From assembly GCA_903955385.1 (NCBI GenBank), contig CAJBNH010000130.1, positions 1 to 34,583 of the forward strand: a stretch of 34,583 nt of DNA, written 5' to 3'. Of the stretch, positions 27,207-33,542 are shown piece after piece. The stretch comes from an uncultured Myxococcales bacterium (GTDB lineage: Bacteria; Myxococcota_A; UBA9042). The first letter of the stretch is position 1; each line of letters opens with the position of its first letter. The notes beneath the pieces were generated by a model. It was not told the origin of the DNA. It made no database searches and was given only the letters and a program-made list of their open reading frames with translations. Made by a program: the position numbers and the translations under genes.

Positions 27207-28190
27207 CTATTGGGCCAGCAGCTCACCGCGGACTCGACTGGTCACCAGAAGATCCACACAACCTGGCGCAAGCTCGACGGAATCGGCCGTGCGCCGCTCG
27301 ATGGACGCCGTCGCTGCGCCCGACACGCCGTAGTTCAACAACGCGGTCGTCAGGCCCGCAGGAATCGTGTAGCTGCCGGTGTCTGGCACGTCGCAGACGA
27401 GCGTGACCGGCGTCAGCCCGTGCTGGTCCACGTTCAGCGAGATCCGCACTTGCCACGGCCCCTGCGCGGCCTCCCAAGTCAGCGTCAGCGCAGTGTTCTT
27501 CTTCATCACCCAGTCTACCGCCGACACGACCAGGTCGGGCACGCCCACGCCGTGTAGTGCAAACGCCTTCAGGTCGCCCCCCGCCGCCTTGAGCTCGACG
27601 TGCGCGCCCATTTCATAGGCCTTGGTGTCGAAGTCCGTGAAAAAGTAGTCTTTGTTCGCGCCCTTGGCCGTCATCGTCACGGGCAGGACCAGCCCGGTCA
27701 CGGTCACCGCACCGACGTCCATCGGGGCCGGGAACGGCTGGCAGCCGGCATCGCGCACACACTGCTCGGTCTTACTGCAACCCGGCGAACACGTAGGGTT
27801 CTTGCGCTGCAACAGCACGCAAGGGCCGTCCTTCTCCTGCTCGACCAGCACCTGCAACGCGTCGATGCGGTCGCTGATGTTGCCCGCCACGTAGGCGCCG
27901 TACTCGTCGTGCAGCGCCTCGAAGCGACCGACGCGGGTCGCCGCCGGACACGCCTGACCGAGCTGCTGGACCCATGGATCCTGCGCTGTATCGACCGGTT
28001 CCACGACTTCACCTGCGTCTGCGTCGCCCGACTCGACCTCGACCGCCACATCCAGTTCCGGCGTCGTGTCCCCGGTCGCGTCACCAACAGCCGTGTCGAC
28101 AACAGGCGTGGTTCCGTCAGAGGAGTCGCAGCCGGACGCCACTGCGACGGCAAGCACAAAGACCCACAGAATCTTGGGGATGCGAGACAT
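27207..28190 (-). CDS. Lipoprotein of unknown function, last gene of a minus-strand group
   Basis: The 327-residue protein starts MSRIPKILWVFVLAVAVASG and has Cys21 as lipid site (ASGC), followed by an Asp/Thr/Val spacer to about residue 68. The middle has PTCSPGCSKTEQCVRDAGC, a small Cys cluster that could be a disulfide knot. The C-terminal 170 residues are strand-rich (VTVTGLVLPVTMTAKG, WQVRISLNVDQHG, VTLVCDVPDTGSYTIPAGLT) and look like a sandwich domain. GGAG lies nine bases before the ATG. It begins 23 bases after the dikinase-like gene, so the two are probably cotranscribed. The Asp just after the lipid Cys would, by the E. coli rule, retain it in the inner membrane; whether that rule holds here is unknown. 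Confidence 0.75.
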   Translation of the reverse strand: MSRIPKILWVFVLAVAVASGCDSSDGTTPVVDTAVGDATGDTTPELDVAVEVESGDADAGEVVEPVDTAQDPWVQQLGQACPAATRVGRFEALHDEYGAYVAGNISDRIDALQVLVEQEKDGPCVLLQRKNPTCSPGCSKTEQCVRDAGCQPFPAPMDVGAVTVTGLVLPVTMTAKGANKDYFFTDFDTKAYEMGAHVELKAAGGDLKAFALHGVGVPDLVVSAVDWVMKKNTALTLTWEAAQGPWQVRISLNVDQHGLTPVTLVCDVPDTGSYTIPAGLTTALLNYGVSGAATASIERRTADSVELAPGCVDLLVTSRVRGELLAQ

Positions 28191-28213: not shown

Positions 28214-30208
28214 TCACTGCGCCCAGCCCTGATGTGGCCGCGCCTGCTTGATCCACACCTTGGACACCGTGTCGCCGGGGGCCGTGTCGAACTTGAACTC
28301 GACATCCATGGCGTAGAACTTGCCCGGTTTCGCATAGATGGGGGCAAACGCCTCGTGCACCTTCACCAACTGCTTGCCCAGCTCATGCACCTGGTCGACC
28401 GTCAGCACGGTCTTTCCAGCACCCACCAGCGAGCTCTGCCCCAGATAGGAAATCGGCTGGCCGGGATAGGCATAGAAATACAGGAACTGCTCGGCCGTCA
28501 CGCCGTCGCCGGGAGGGCGCACAACCGGCGTGTCCCCCGTCTGGACGTTGATGTAGAAGGCAGGCTGCATCGGGTCGAACAGGTTGTTGGTCAGGGCCAC
28601 GCCGTTGGCGTCCTCGGTGGGAAAGCCGCGGTGCACCAACAGCGCCATCGCCACCTGGTCGTTGGGAATGCCTCGCCACGCCCGCTCTTCAAACGCCCGG
28701 TCGTTCCACAGGCTGGCAAACACCTTGCGCACCTGGTCTTCCAGCGCTGAGGTGGGGTCCGCCGGGTCCCAAGTCTTGGACGTATACAGTCCGGCCCCCG
28801 TGAAGCCGTCAAGGTCCTCGGCGTTGGTGCTCGACCGCAACCGCACACGCTGATTCGGAAACTTCTCGTCCAGTCGCGCCCGCAGCGTCTGCAGGAAAGC
28901 CGGGTCCAGTGGCGCCGTCAGCACGAATTCCCGCAGCTCTTGCAGCTTGGACTGGTGATAGGCAGGGTCCTGCACGAACTTCGGGTCCGCTTCGAGTGCC
29001 GCCACCCTTTCGTACAGGCCGTTCTGCACGGCGAACTGGTGGTAGTAGAACACCGGCACGGCGAACGCGGGCGGCACGGGCAGCGTGGGGATCTGGCACA
29101 GCTGTCCGTAGTTGCTGGCCTTTCCGCCAAAGATCGGCGTGTCGGTCGCCGAGACCTGGGTGCAGTCGCGCAGCTCTGTCACGGTCAGGTCCAGGTCGGG
29201 CACCTGGACGACACCCGGCTTGTGCGCCTCCCACCACGCGTCGGCTTCGGCCTGCGTCACTTCCTCGATCTGCCAGTCGAAAGCGGTCACGGTCAGCCGT
29301 ACCCACTTGTTCTGCAAGGACTTCAGCTTGCTGTCGACTTGCGCTCCCACCAGCGCCATGTTCGGCGTGCCGCGGTTCTGCGACAGAACGTTGACGTGTG
29401 ACAGCGGCGTCTGCAGCTCAGCCGTGATCAGGCCCGCCACGACCGACAGGTCGTTCGGCACCGCGTCCAGCACGGCGACGTCGCGCGGCGTTACCCAGGC
29501 CTTCTGCGCTTCGAGATCCTTGACCTGGTAGAACCGCAGCTGACCGACCGCAACCCCAGGATTCAAGGGTTGAAACGACAAGCCCGCGAACAGCTCGGCG
29601 GTCGTCACGATCTTGACGCGCTCGGGCAGCAACGGCACCAGCAACGCCACGGCGTCACTGGTCGGGTGAAAGCGCAGCTGCGGGCCGAAGAACGTCGCGG
29701 CGACCAGCAGGTCCCACGCACGCACCACCATGTCGGCCGATGCGGTGTCGTAGGGCGCGATCTCATACGCCCACACGCCTGCCCCCTCGTAGAACGTCAC
29801 CGCGCCCAGCAGGAACCGCCGCGTGGGGCTGAAGTACTCCTGCGCTGAGAACGACGACGCGTCCTTGACCAGCGGCTTGCCCTTGCCCGACAGGTACTTC
29901 TGGGCAAAGGCGTAGTGCATCGGATAGGTCTCGGCGTTCAGGAAGTACAGCGCGTCGCTGTCCGCCGTGTCGACGATGGTCTTCGACGACTTCGCACCGG
30001 GGATCGCCGCATCGGGAGGACGCCACGCCAGCGCTTCGAAGTCGGCCGGACAGGTCAGCTGGTGGGCAAAGGCAGGCCGCTCTCCCGCGGGAACCGTGCA
30101 CGCGGGGCCCGAGGTATCACCGCCCGCGTCGGCGTCGGCCGCATCGCCGCCGCCGGAACAGCCCAGCGTCGTCAGCAGGGCGCAACACCAGAGCCAAGTC
30201 CCTTTCAT
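28214..30208 (-). CDS. Lipoprotein with PEP-synthase/dikinase-type catalytic core
   Basis: The 664-residue protein begins MKGTWLWCCALLTTLGCSGG, a hydrophobic leader with likely lipid site Cys17 (the lipobox TLGC is not ideal), then a Gly/Asp spacer. Residues about 240-300 form a phosphohistidine swivel domain: TPLSHVNVLSQNRGTPNMAL with His271. Residues about 355-660 form the PEP/pyruvate-type ATP-grasp: IFGGKASNYGQL, VRLRSSTNAEDLDGFTGAGL, LVHRGFPTEDANG, and the ending MDVEFKF with IKQARP. In this family ATP phosphorylates the His and the phosphate passes to an acceptor. The order, His domain before nucleotide domain, is that of glucan water dikinase and opposite to PEP synthase. An exported ATP-grasp is puzzling because ATP is scarce outside. 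The acceptor is unknown. It sits 22 bases after the gene upstream. Confidence 0.8.
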   Translation of the reverse strand: MKGTWLWCCALLTTLGCSGGGDAADADAGGDTSGPACTVPAGERPAFAHQLTCPADFEALAWRPPDAAIPGAKSSKTIVDTADSDALYFLNAETYPMHYAFAQKYLSGKGKPLVKDASSFSAQEYFSPTRRFLLGAVTFYEGAGVWAYEIAPYDTASADMVVRAWDLLVAATFFGPQLRFHPTSDAVALLVPLLPERVKIVTTAELFAGLSFQPLNPGVAVGQLRFYQVKDLEAQKAWVTPRDVAVLDAVPNDLSVVAGLITAELQTPLSHVNVLSQNRGTPNMALVGAQVDSKLKSLQNKWVRLTVTAFDWQIEEVTQAEADAWWEAHKPGVVQVPDLDLTVTELRDCTQVSATDTPIFGGKASNYGQLCQIPTLPVPPAFAVPVFYYHQFAVQNGLYERVAALEADPKFVQDPAYHQSKLQELREFVLTAPLDPAFLQTLRARLDEKFPNQRVRLRSSTNAEDLDGFTGAGLYTSKTWDPADPTSALEDQVRKVFASLWNDRAFEERAWRGIPNDQVAMALLVHRGFPTEDANGVALTNNLFDPMQPAFYINVQTGDTPVVRPPGDGVTAEQFLYFYAYPGQPISYLGQSSLVGAGKTVLTVDQVHELGKQLVKVHEAFAPIYAKPGKFYAMDVEFKFDTAPGDTVSKVWIKQARPHQGWAQ

Positions 30209-30230: not shown

Positions 30231-31349
30231 CTAGGGAAACGCCCGCGGTGCCGTCGGAACACCGACCCGCACCCGCCACAGGCCGATCTTCCAGCCATCC
30301 GGCAAGTACAGGCTGTAGGGGTCCCAGCCGCCGCCGGGGCCCCACTGCATGTTGGGCAGGTAGGTCGCCCCGGGGTCGGCGTCGATGATCTTCACGCCCG
30401 GCCCCCCCTGCGGTGGGATGCGCCAGACGTCCGCATTGCCGTACTCGCACACGTAGACGTTGCCGCACACGTCAACGCCGATGCCGTCCAACAGCCCGTC
30501 GCCGCCCGTGGGGTTCGACCAGACGATGAGCTTGCCGGGCACGCCCGTTGGCGACACGGCCAGACGGTAGATCGACCCGGTGGCGAACGAGCCAATGTAC
30601 AGATACTTGAATTCCGGGTCGAAGATGACGCCGTTCGGGTTCTGGATGGCGTTGGTCAGCACGGTGTAGTCGCCGGAGTAGGGGTCGATGCGCAGCACGC
30701 GTCCCGCATCGTGCTCGGTGACGTAGATGTAGCCCTTCAGATCGACCGTAATCCCATTGGGATACAGCAGCCCCTGCACCAGCACCGTCTGCGACCCGTC
30801 CTGATCGAACAGCAGAATCCGCCCCAGCTTGTCGTCGCACACCGCCAGCTTGCCGTTGGGCAGGAACCGCATCCCGGCGCGCTGGTCAACGTTGGGGATC
30901 CACAGCTTGCCCTTGCCGCCGGCTTTGGTGCGGTAGAGCGCCGTGTTGTTCGACCCCACCAGATTGCCCAAGTGGTCGAAGGCGAGGTCCTCTGAAGCCA
31001 CCGCTCCGGGCACGGCTTCCAGCTGGAAGGGTCCCGGCGGCAGGTTGTTGCAGTCGTAGGTCGCCGGCTCCGGCAGGTCCGCGGTGTCCTGACCCGCGTC
31101 CACATCGTCGTCGATCTCTGGGGTTACGTCGGTCTCTACGTCCGACTCGTCGGCCAAGTCCGCCACGTCCAGAACGTCTGGGACGTCCGGCCCGACGTCA
31201 GACGCATCCGGCTCCACAACATCCATGAGATCAGAGACATCGGCGACATCTTCGACATCCGCGGCCACATCGGTCGGCACTGTGGCGTCGGTGGGCTCGG
31301 CCCGATTTCCACACCCGGCGATGACCAGCAGCGCGACCAACGCCCCCAT
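30231..31349 (-). CDS. Probable separate lipoprotein with SMP-30/NHL-like propeller (internal start)
   Basis: From the in-frame ATG at 31349 the 372-residue product starts MGALVALLVIAGCGN, a complete lipoprotein signal (IAGC, Cys13). An Asp/Val-rich acidic spacer of about 80 residues follows, as in the other lipoproteins of the window. The rest is a gluconolactonase/NHL-like six-bladed propeller: LYPNGITVDLKGYIYVTEHD, RVLRIDPYSGDYTVLTNAIQ, NPNGVIFDPEFKYLYIGSFA and DGIGVDVCGNVYVCEYGNAD. GTGATGG at this point overlaps a +1-frame TGA with the ATG, the usual arrangement of coupled genes. I think this was originally an independent gene, with the upstream gene ending at that TGA. A ribosome site is weak. 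Confidence 0.6.
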   Translation of the reverse strand: MGALVALLVIAGCGNRAEPTDATVPTDVAADVEDVADVSDLMDVVEPDASDVGPDVPDVLDVADLADESDVETDVTPEIDDDVDAGQDTADLPEPATYDCNNLPPGPFQLEAVPGAVASEDLAFDHLGNLVGSNNTALYRTKAGGKGKLWIPNVDQRAGMRFLPNGKLAVCDDKLGRILLFDQDGSQTVLVQGLLYPNGITVDLKGYIYVTEHDAGRVLRIDPYSGDYTVLTNAIQNPNGVIFDPEFKYLYIGSFATGSIYRLAVSPTGVPGKLIVWSNPTGGDGLLDGIGVDVCGNVYVCEYGNADVWRIPPQGGPGVKIIDADPGATYLPNMQWGPGGGWDPYSLYLPDGWKIGLWRVRVGVPTAPRAFP

Positions 31350-33449
31350 CACCCACCACGAACGCCTGGTCGACCGCCGCCGTACCGCGCCCATCAGCAA
31401 CAGGGAGAGCAACAGCAACAGGCCGCCGCCGCGCGCTCCGGGCCCGGTCGCTCCTGCCTTGCAGCCGCCGCTGCTGCCTGCCGTATCGCCGCTTGCGTCG
31501 GACTTGCAGACACCGGCAGAGCACGCAACCCCCGACGCGCACTCGCCACACGTGCCGCCGCAACCGTCGGGACCACACCCGGGCGTCTTGCACTGCGGCG
31601 TGCAGGTGGGCTTGCAAGCAGAGGCCTCGCAGCCGTTGGGACAGGACTGCAAGTACTGGGCGTTTTGGCCACACGAGTCCAGGGTGCATAGCGCCGAGCC
31701 GCAGCAGACCCGCTCGTCGCCCGGCACGCACGCACACTGGCCGTCCTGACACTGCTTGCCGCCAAAGCAGCCGCCGCACTCGCCGCCGCAACCGTCCGGC
31801 CCGCACTCCAGACCAAGGCACTTGGGCTCGCAGCTGCCAGGACAGGCCTTGACGAGTTTGCCCGAAGGGTCCGCCTCGCCCGTGGTGCCGCAGTCGTAAT
31901 GCTGGTTGCCGGGGTGCCAGCCGCACCCTCCGGGGGGGGCGCACACCTGCTGCGTCACCTGACCGCCATTGCAGACCTTCAACGTCTGGCCGTCACAGCA
32001 GCCCTCTGCCTGCACGCCGTCACAGCCGTTCGCGACGCACTGCCCCTCGTTGCACGCGAAATGTGCAGGACAATCGCCGCAGTCCCCGCCACAGCCATTG
32101 TCGCCACACGCTTTGCCTGCGCACTGCGGAAGACAGGCGACACAGGTTCCGTCCTTGCAAAGGGTCCCCTTGTCGCATGGACACTTGCCGCCACAACCGT
32201 CGTCGCCGCAGGATGTTCCGTCGCACGTCGTCTTGCAGCACCCCGCGTTGCCAGGACAGGACTCGCAGACGCCCTCGCAGCAGTCGCCGTAGTCCGCGCA
32301 AGCGTCGTCGCAGTAGCAATCCTGTCCGCTCTCGTTCTTTACAGGACCACCGCCGCACTGGCCCGCGCAAACTCCTGTCATGCAAGCGTTTCCGACGCAA
32401 ATCAGGCCCTCGTCGCACTGACCGCACTCGCCACCGCAACCGTCGGATCCGCAAGCCTTGCCCTCGCAATCGGGGACACACTTCTCGCACTGACCGTCGA
32501 TACACGCGTCCCACTCGCCACACGAGCCGCACTTGCCACCGCAACCGTCCGAACCGCAGGTCTTGCCCTCGCACGTCGGCTGACAGCACTGGTACTGGTG
32601 GCAGACCTGACCGCCTTTGCAGCCGCCGCAGTCCACGCCGCAGAAGTTGCCACAGCCCAGACCGTCGCACGTCGGCTTGGCGGGACACGGAGCGCAGGAC
32701 TGCCCGCACTCGGTCTCGCACGCTTCGGCGCAGAACGCGTCCCAAGCCAGCGTGCAGCAAAAGGGATGCTTGGTGCATACGCACGACTCGCACATGCAGC
32801 CCGGGCAGCCGGGCTGGTCGCTGGGAAGGCAGGCTTGCGGCACGGGCAGGCACTGGCTCAGGCCCGGCTCGCACGCGGTGCCGGAAGGGCAGACGCCGCA
32901 CGAGAAGCCGTTGGGGTCCACGCCGCAGGTCTGTTGGCCGCACTGGGGGACGTAGCACGCGCCGTCGTCCAGACACAGCGCTCCCTTCCCCTCGCACTTG
33001 CCACAGAGTCCCGAGCACTTGGCGCTGCAGGCCGCTGCACCGCCCTGACACTCCGCGGGACACGCTGAGCAGGACAGCGGGTGCGTCCCGCTGGGGTCAG
33101 CGCCGCCAGTCGTGCCGCAGTCGTAGGTTCCAGCACTGCTGCCGGGGCCAGAGGAAGCCCACCCGCAAGCGGGGAAGGTGCCCGCGCAGTCAATGCAGTA
33201 CAGGTCGGCTCCAGTGCAATAGAGCAGACGTCCGGTCGCGTCGCAGCACCCGGCGGGGTCGAGCTTGCAGCCACCGACGACCGAGGGTTCCAGCGGCCCC
33301 TTGCACGCCTTGGGGCTGCCTTCCGCCGCCGCGACGACTGGCCATGCGCACACGGCGGCAAGACAAGCGACGAGCAGCCAGCGCCAAGCGCGACGGGAGG
33401 CCCGCGTGAAGTCGGTGGGGGTCGAGAAGGGCGCGCGACGGGTGGACAT
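30231..33449 (-). CDS. Giant Cys-rich secreted protein joined in frame to a propeller lipoprotein
   Basis: This 1072-residue frame has a signal peptide (RRAWRWLLVACLAAVCAWPV, cleavage near AAAEG). Residues about 50-650 are Cys-rich. Six modules of the type CGSDGCGGKCGSC occur, two copies of a module with a YDCGTTG.ADPSG core, and a somatomedin-B-like segment (about 361-398, with DCYCDDACADYGDCC). It then shows a tail like MYXO-CTERM (GGCKAGATGP, GGGLLLLLSLLLMGAVRRR) at about 660-697, where such proteins normally stop. Instead the frame continues directly into a lipoprotein signal and propeller from 31349. The ATG at 33449 is preferred for its signal peptide; an in-frame ATG at about 33482 overlaps the predicted -10 box. 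Whether one or two proteins are made is unresolved. Confidence 0.75.
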   Translation of the reverse strand: MSTRRAPFSTPTDFTRASRRAWRWLLVACLAAVCAWPVVAAAEGSPKACKGPLEPSVVGGCKLDPAGCCDATGRLLYCTGADLYCIDCAGTFPACGWASSGPGSSAGTYDCGTTGGADPSGTHPLSCSACPAECQGGAAACSAKCSGLCGKCEGKGALCLDDGACYVPQCGQQTCGVDPNGFSCGVCPSGTACEPGLSQCLPVPQACLPSDQPGCPGCMCESCVCTKHPFCCTLAWDAFCAEACETECGQSCAPCPAKPTCDGLGCGNFCGVDCGGCKGGQVCHQYQCCQPTCEGKTCGSDGCGGKCGSCGEWDACIDGQCEKCVPDCEGKACGSDGCGGECGQCDEGLICVGNACMTGVCAGQCGGGPVKNESGQDCYCDDACADYGDCCEGVCESCPGNAGCCKTTCDGTSCGDDGCGGKCPCDKGTLCKDGTCVACLPQCAGKACGDNGCGGDCGDCPAHFACNEGQCVANGCDGVQAEGCCDGQTLKVCNGGQVTQQVCAPPGGCGWHPGNQHYDCGTTGEADPSGKLVKACPGSCEPKCLGLECGPDGCGGECGGCFGGKQCQDGQCACVPGDERVCCGSALCTLDSCGQNAQYLQSCPNGCEASACKPTCTPQCKTPGCGPDGCGGTCGECASGVACSAGVCKSDASGDTAGSSGGCKAGATGPGARGGGLLLLLSLLLMGAVRRRSTRRSWWVMGALVALLVIAGCGNRAEPTDATVPTDVAADVEDVADVSDLMDVVEPDASDVGPDVPDVLDVADLADESDVETDVTPEIDDDVDAGQDTADLPEPATYDCNNLPPGPFQLEAVPGAVASEDLAFDHLGNLVGSNNTALYRTKAGGKGKLWIPNVDQRAGMRFLPNGKLAVCDDKLGRILLFDQDGSQTVLVQGLLYPNGITVDLKGYIYVTEHDAGRVLRIDPYSGDYTVLTNAIQNPNGVIFDPEFKYLYIGSFATGSIYRLAVSPTGVPGKLIVWSNPTGGDGLLDGIGVDVCGNVYVCEYGNADVWRIPPQGGPGVKIIDADPGATYLPNMQWGPGGGWDPYSLYLPDGWKIGLWRVRVGVPTAPRAFP

Positions 33450-33480
33450 GAAACACCGCGAGGGCAAAGGCCAGACCCGC

Positions 33481-33509
33481 ATCCTAATTGGCCGTTCGCG
33501 GGGGGGCAA
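33481..33509 (-). promoter_or_regulatory. Promoter candidate for the Cys-rich/dikinase gene group
   Basis: On the minus strand TTGCCC (33509-33504) and TAGGAT (33486-33481) are separated by exactly 17 bases, 31 bases upstream of the ATG at 33449. It is the third TTG-N3-N17-TAGG example in the window and separates this group from the phosphatase gene. Confidence 0.45.
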
Positions 33510-33542
33510 ACGCGTTGCGCTGCTTCGGCGCGTTCTCATCGC

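Follow-up and report, generated by a model that had tools for sequence, protein, structure and literature searches.

Dikinases are ATP-spending enzymes of the cytoplasm or plastid, and to our knowledge all that have been characterised work in one of these two compartments. A gene within a 34,583-nucleotide stretch of DNA from an uncultured Myxococcales bacterium (contig CAJBNH010000130.1, the whole of which we call the window) raises the question of what a dikinase-like protein could be doing when it starts with a lipoprotein leader. We consider it probable that its product is a membrane-anchored extracytoplasmic phosphotransferase of the dikinase type, a reading that combines export with catalysis and draws on sequence conservation and a structure model.

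The gene runs on the minus strand from the ATG at 30208 to the stop at 28214 and encodes 664 amino acids, arranged as a leader, a linker, an N-terminal domain of 170 residues, a phosphohistidine domain and a C-terminal PPDK-type ATP-grasp. The gene's features and its two neighbours are as follows.

30231-33539, minus strand: upstream ORF (cluster c2), beginning with a Cys-rich part that has a MYXO-CTERM-like segment, followed by an internal lipobox and a propeller of the SMP-30/gluconolactonase kind.
30158-30208, minus strand: lipoprotein leader, residues 1-17 (MKGTWLWCCALLTTLG followed by C17, the predicted lipidated cysteine), supported by the lipobox test of orthologues.
30101-30157, minus strand: Asp/Gly-rich linker, residues 18-36, seen in the sequence and variable in length among orthologues.
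29579-30100, minus strand: N-terminal domain, about residues 37-210, supported by conservation and the model (pLDDT 95.4), with Cys37-Cys53, K76, H98, R130 and D154.
29255-29578, minus strand: swivelling phosphohistidine domain, about residues 211-318, from fold matches and the invariant His271.
29396-29398, minus strand: His271 codon.
28217-29185, minus strand: ATP-grasp, residues 342-664, from PPDK_N and fold, with K363, R458, E637, K654, Q655 and R657.
27207-28190, minus strand: downstream lipoprotein gene (cluster c1), its ATG just past the dikinase-like gene's stop.

The coordinates, motifs and residue numbers of the first-pass annotation proved right on re-reading of the 664-residue ORF: H271 lies in QTPLSHVNVL, K363 in FGGKASNYG, R458 in RLRSSTNAEDLDGF, E637 in MDVEFKF and Q655/R657 in IKQARP. 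The ATG, with an AGAGAGG stretch on its 5' side, is located 22 bases beyond the upstream gene's stop at 30231, and about 23 bases separate the dikinase-like gene's own stop from the next gene start. An alternative start (ATG 30298, a 694-residue ORF) was rejected, since translation from there would overlap the upstream gene and place the leader inside the protein.

The protein has all three parts of a lipoprotein leader, namely an n-region, a hydrophobic stretch and a lipobox cysteine. We collected 80 related loci; 66 orthologues among them had their whole 5' end and could be assessed for a leader. Export by this route, which had been proposed from the window alone, is upheld by 60 of these 66, which pass a strict lipobox test that codon-shuffled upstream frames pass at 5%. 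The six failing orthologues (with endings such as SMHLFC, LLLLLSC and LSLVAC) are leader-like by eye and fall below the script's thresholds. Orthologues starting after the leader, named beforehand as evidence against export, were sought and none was found; many members of paralogue clades also have a lipoprotein leader. Between the lipid cysteine and the invariant Cys53, orthologues carry a low-complexity linker of 23-140 residues, and in 65/66 of them another cysteine precedes Cys53 by 11-24 residues (the Cys37-Cys53 pair). A second pair, Cys471/Cys474, is present as a whole in 20/69 orthologues, absent as a whole in 49 and never single; in L036, L038 and L056, for example, CAGC stands instead of GAGL beside the RSSTNxED loop of the ATP-grasp. 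Lying near the active site, this pair could possibly form a disulfide or a metal site, and the paired cysteines would fit an oxidising compartment. The protein is thus predicted, from sequence, to be an exported bacterial lipoprotein.

The active site is preserved as well. H271, K363, R458, E464 and D465 are invariant in 79/79 aligned orthologues, and E637, K654, Q655 and R657 are kept in 96-97% of them. The first-pass annotation had claimed a complete catalytic core and had named systematic loss of His271 and the ATP-grasp residues in relatives as refuting; such loss was sought and not found, and the claim holds across the 79 orthologues. By motif alignment, K363 corresponds to Lys22 and R657 to Arg337 of PPDK, residues whose functions are established in that enzyme, and the PPDK_N match to the 664-residue protein (Pfam, E 4.7e-27) is far beyond chance. 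From 69 sequences we built a structure model that covers residues 37-664 (model residue 1 being protein residue 37) and has a mean pLDDT of 91.7. Its ATP-grasp (model 306-628) matches RPH 5hv1 (Z 28.9, 2.4 A over 293 residues, 18% identity) and PEPS 2ols (Z 27.0, 2.4 A over 288 residues), while the His domain (model 175-282) matches the mobile domains of RPH (5fbu, Z 11.3), pyruvate kinase (3t05, Z 10.5) and Enzyme I (1zym, Z 10.0). Two features that characterise the dikinase superfamily, a PPDK-type ATP-grasp with the K, R, E, Q, R set and a mobile domain with an invariant phosphorylatable His, are both present.

Within this superfamily the protein can be assigned neither to PEPS/PPDK nor to GWD. 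It shares with PEPS/PPDK (2ols, 1dik; PF01326) the PPDK_N domain, the equivalents of Lys22 and Arg337 and the phospho-His motif. However, it differs from them in its predicted export and, decisively for the assignment, in having no C-terminal PEP/pyruvate TIM barrel (the modelled chain ends with the ATP-grasp, and Pfam gives no barrel match) and in its domain order, since PEPS/PPDK have the ATP-grasp before the His domain and here the His domain comes first. The GLGE motif of PEPS is not recognisable in the orthologue alignment, which reads NVQTG...VV-P at that place. RPH (5hv1, 5fbu) has the same ATP-grasp fold, swivelling His domain and GGK and RSS..ED motifs, but it is a cytoplasmic enzyme with the ATP-grasp first and the His domain last, and it has neither a leader nor such an N-terminal domain. 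In GWD, a His domain is followed by a C-terminal ATP-grasp, and the model and Pfam bear out the suggestion, made at first pass, that the order here is GWD-like and not PEP synthase-like. GWD, in contrast, is a plastid enzyme, and two observations keep the protein out of this group: neither the protein nor its relatives have a Pfam match to CBM45 or another glucan-binding domain, and the match to the GWD pHis domain (GWD1_pHisD, PF22973) is below the curated cut-off (E 0.04, 14 bits vs a cut-off of 27). The same Pfam family matches 14/69 relatives when E values as high as 0.1 are admitted (the best being 0.0012), and for the PEP-utilizers family the best E among relatives is 0.00033. Since no GWD structure is among the PDB matches listed, the likeness to GWD rests on order and Pfam, not on fold.

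Relatives of the protein are widespread in the two phyla surveyed, Myxococcota and the one to which the Fibrobacter-labelled record L085 belongs: at E 1e-30, family members occur in 37/113 sampled Myxococcota genomes and in 8/61 genomes of the latter phylum. Among cultured hosts, Sorangium, Nannocystis and Pyxidicoccus have orthologues. A literature search of limited journal coverage, taking in dikinases that are exported or lipid-anchored, GWD homologues of bacteria and the vesicle proteomes of myxobacteria, yielded no account of this family or of any exported dikinase. We are apparently dealing with a large undescribed family of Myxococcota and Fibrobacterota. The genome of the window itself has three further exported-looking dikinase-like copies (L004, L005 and L009 on contigs C169, C92 and C143) as well as a leaderless PPDK. 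In the wider family of some 40-43 members the catalytic set is intact in nearly all readable ones, the rows of L009 and L133-L135 being incomplete at the C-end through alignment or length. Two members, L110 and L116, have lost the His, Lys, Arg, Glu-Asp pair, Glu637 and Gln655 all together; they are full-length, keep the fold and retain the K, H, R and D of the N-terminal domain, and judged by sequence they would form a distant pseudoenzyme branch. As the fold evidently tolerates loss of the catalytic residues as a block, their retention elsewhere points to catalysis, and in the rest of the family these residues look to be under selection.

The dikinase-like gene stands among tightly spaced lipoprotein genes, and in 56/78 loci a c1, c2 or c3 lipoprotein gene lies on the same strand no more than two genes away. 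Relatives of the downstream c1 protein, which belongs to no Pfam family, are found in 44 loci; conserved cysteines and an HG close to the C-end mark the c1 family. SMP-30-like propellers (c2) occur in 24 loci, and c3 is a lipoprotein family that weakly resembles DUF1554. Next to some relatives Pfam identifies CotH, VTC, DUF4956 and HlyD-like neighbours; in L114, VTC, DUF4956, the dikinase relative and CotH are on one strand inside 15 kb. Of 32 VTC genes in the phylum sample, 5 have a family member no more than 6 kb away vs 0.17 expected (Poisson p 9e-7); in three of the five that member belongs to the broader family and is not a window-type orthologue. By genome, VTC is present in 30/37 with the family vs 24/76 without it (Fisher p 8e-7, uncorrected for kinship). 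The link to VTC, DUF4956 and CotH comes from relatives, because in the window's own genome these genes are on other contigs and not beside the dikinase-like gene. A gene set of CotH, polyphosphate polymerase (VTC) and DUF4956 has been described as an accessory module beside Pel clusters (PMC7112168). Some dikinase relatives adjoin the same genes, whereas the passages describing the module name no dikinase-like member; Pel genes were not identified at dikinase-family loci, and the window copy is unlinked.

The N-terminal domain, modelled alone, gives a confident fold (pLDDT 95.4) with no Foldseek match in the PDB at E under 0.001. Its Lys76, His98, Arg130 and Asp154 are nearly invariant and hold in much of the wider family. 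Because they persist even in the catalytically dead L110 and L116, a separate role is suggested for this domain, for example as a candidate acceptor-binding unit. In a structural comparison the four highest rows are polyphosphate kinase 1 (PPK1) entries at Z 3.9-4.8, below the level of trust; this weak resemblance (29579-30079) is curious beside the VTC neighbours of relatives.

If the protein is indeed an extracytoplasmic phosphotransferase, its C-terminal ATP-grasp would bind ATP or another polyphosphate donor and pass phosphate to His271, as in PPDK, PEPS, RPH and GWD. The His domain would then swing over to the N-terminal domain, where Lys76, His98, Arg130 and Asp154 might hold the acceptor. 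The latter would be phosphorylated outside the cytoplasm and could be a surface glycan, a lipid or a protein, with lipoproteins of the same operon among the conceivable targets. Three points count against such an enzyme: little ATP is available outside cells, the GLGE motif of PEPS is not recognisable, and the neighbourhood link to VTC, DUF4956 and CotH stems from relatives. Candidate phosphate sources are ATP freed from lysed cells and polyphosphate from linked VTC genes.

The same ATP-poor compartment would suit an exported binding protein, in which the dikinase fold would hold a nucleotide or a phosphorylated ligand but transfer no phosphate, and the degenerate but full-length L110 and L116 illustrate that the fold can serve without catalysis. 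Yet such a protein would not need His271, and elsewhere a phosphorylatable His on a mobile domain is retained together with the ATP-grasp residues; the all-or-none character of the loss in L110/L116 makes binding alone unlikely in our judgement. Activity inside the cell, with the leader either inefficient or only anchoring a cytoplasmic enzyme, would agree with the location of every characterised dikinase known to us. Nonetheless, we find this very hard to accept because lipobox leaders occur in essentially all orthologues and are accompanied by both cysteine pairs; low-complexity linkers typical of exported lipoproteins and the lipoprotein gene neighbours also speak against it.

A true relative of alpha-glucan water dikinase, phosphorylating surface or prey polysaccharide as GWD does starch, would account for the shared order of domains and for GWD1_pHisD being the protein's only His-domain Pfam match, one found in relatives as well. 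We regard this too as highly improbable, given a match under the cut-off, the lack of a glucan-binding domain in Pfam searches, and PPDK_N, NCBIfam and closest folds that indicate PEPS and RPH instead.

Returning to the preferred reading of an exported phosphotransferase, a large exported branch that is conserved and has kept its active sites would imply an unrecognised supply of high-energy phosphate outside the cell and an equally unrecognised phosphorylated product there. It is tempting to speculate, quite tentatively, that Myxococcota and Fibrobacterota have an exported phosphorylation system, in which a surface or periplasmic dikinase acts on extracytoplasmic molecules with lysed-cell ATP or exported polyphosphate as donor and which in some lineages includes CotH kinases and the VTC/DUF4956 polyphosphate module. 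For testing, the family supplies members that seem to be active, a naturally occurring branch that is catalytically dead, and co-operonic lipoproteins that may be partners.

The upstream ORF has a peculiarity of its own. Near 31280-31420 the MYXO-CTERM-like sorting segment GGGLLLLLSLLLMGAVRRRSTRRS runs straight into the lipoprotein leader WWVMGALVALLVIAGC, so that one uninterrupted frame holds a Cys-rich protein, a leader and the SMP-30-like propeller (Pfam SGL, E 2.9e-14, best stretch 958-1045). Two explanations come to mind, a fusion protein that bears two signals, or the loss of a stop combined with an internal start; a similar join is seen in L011.
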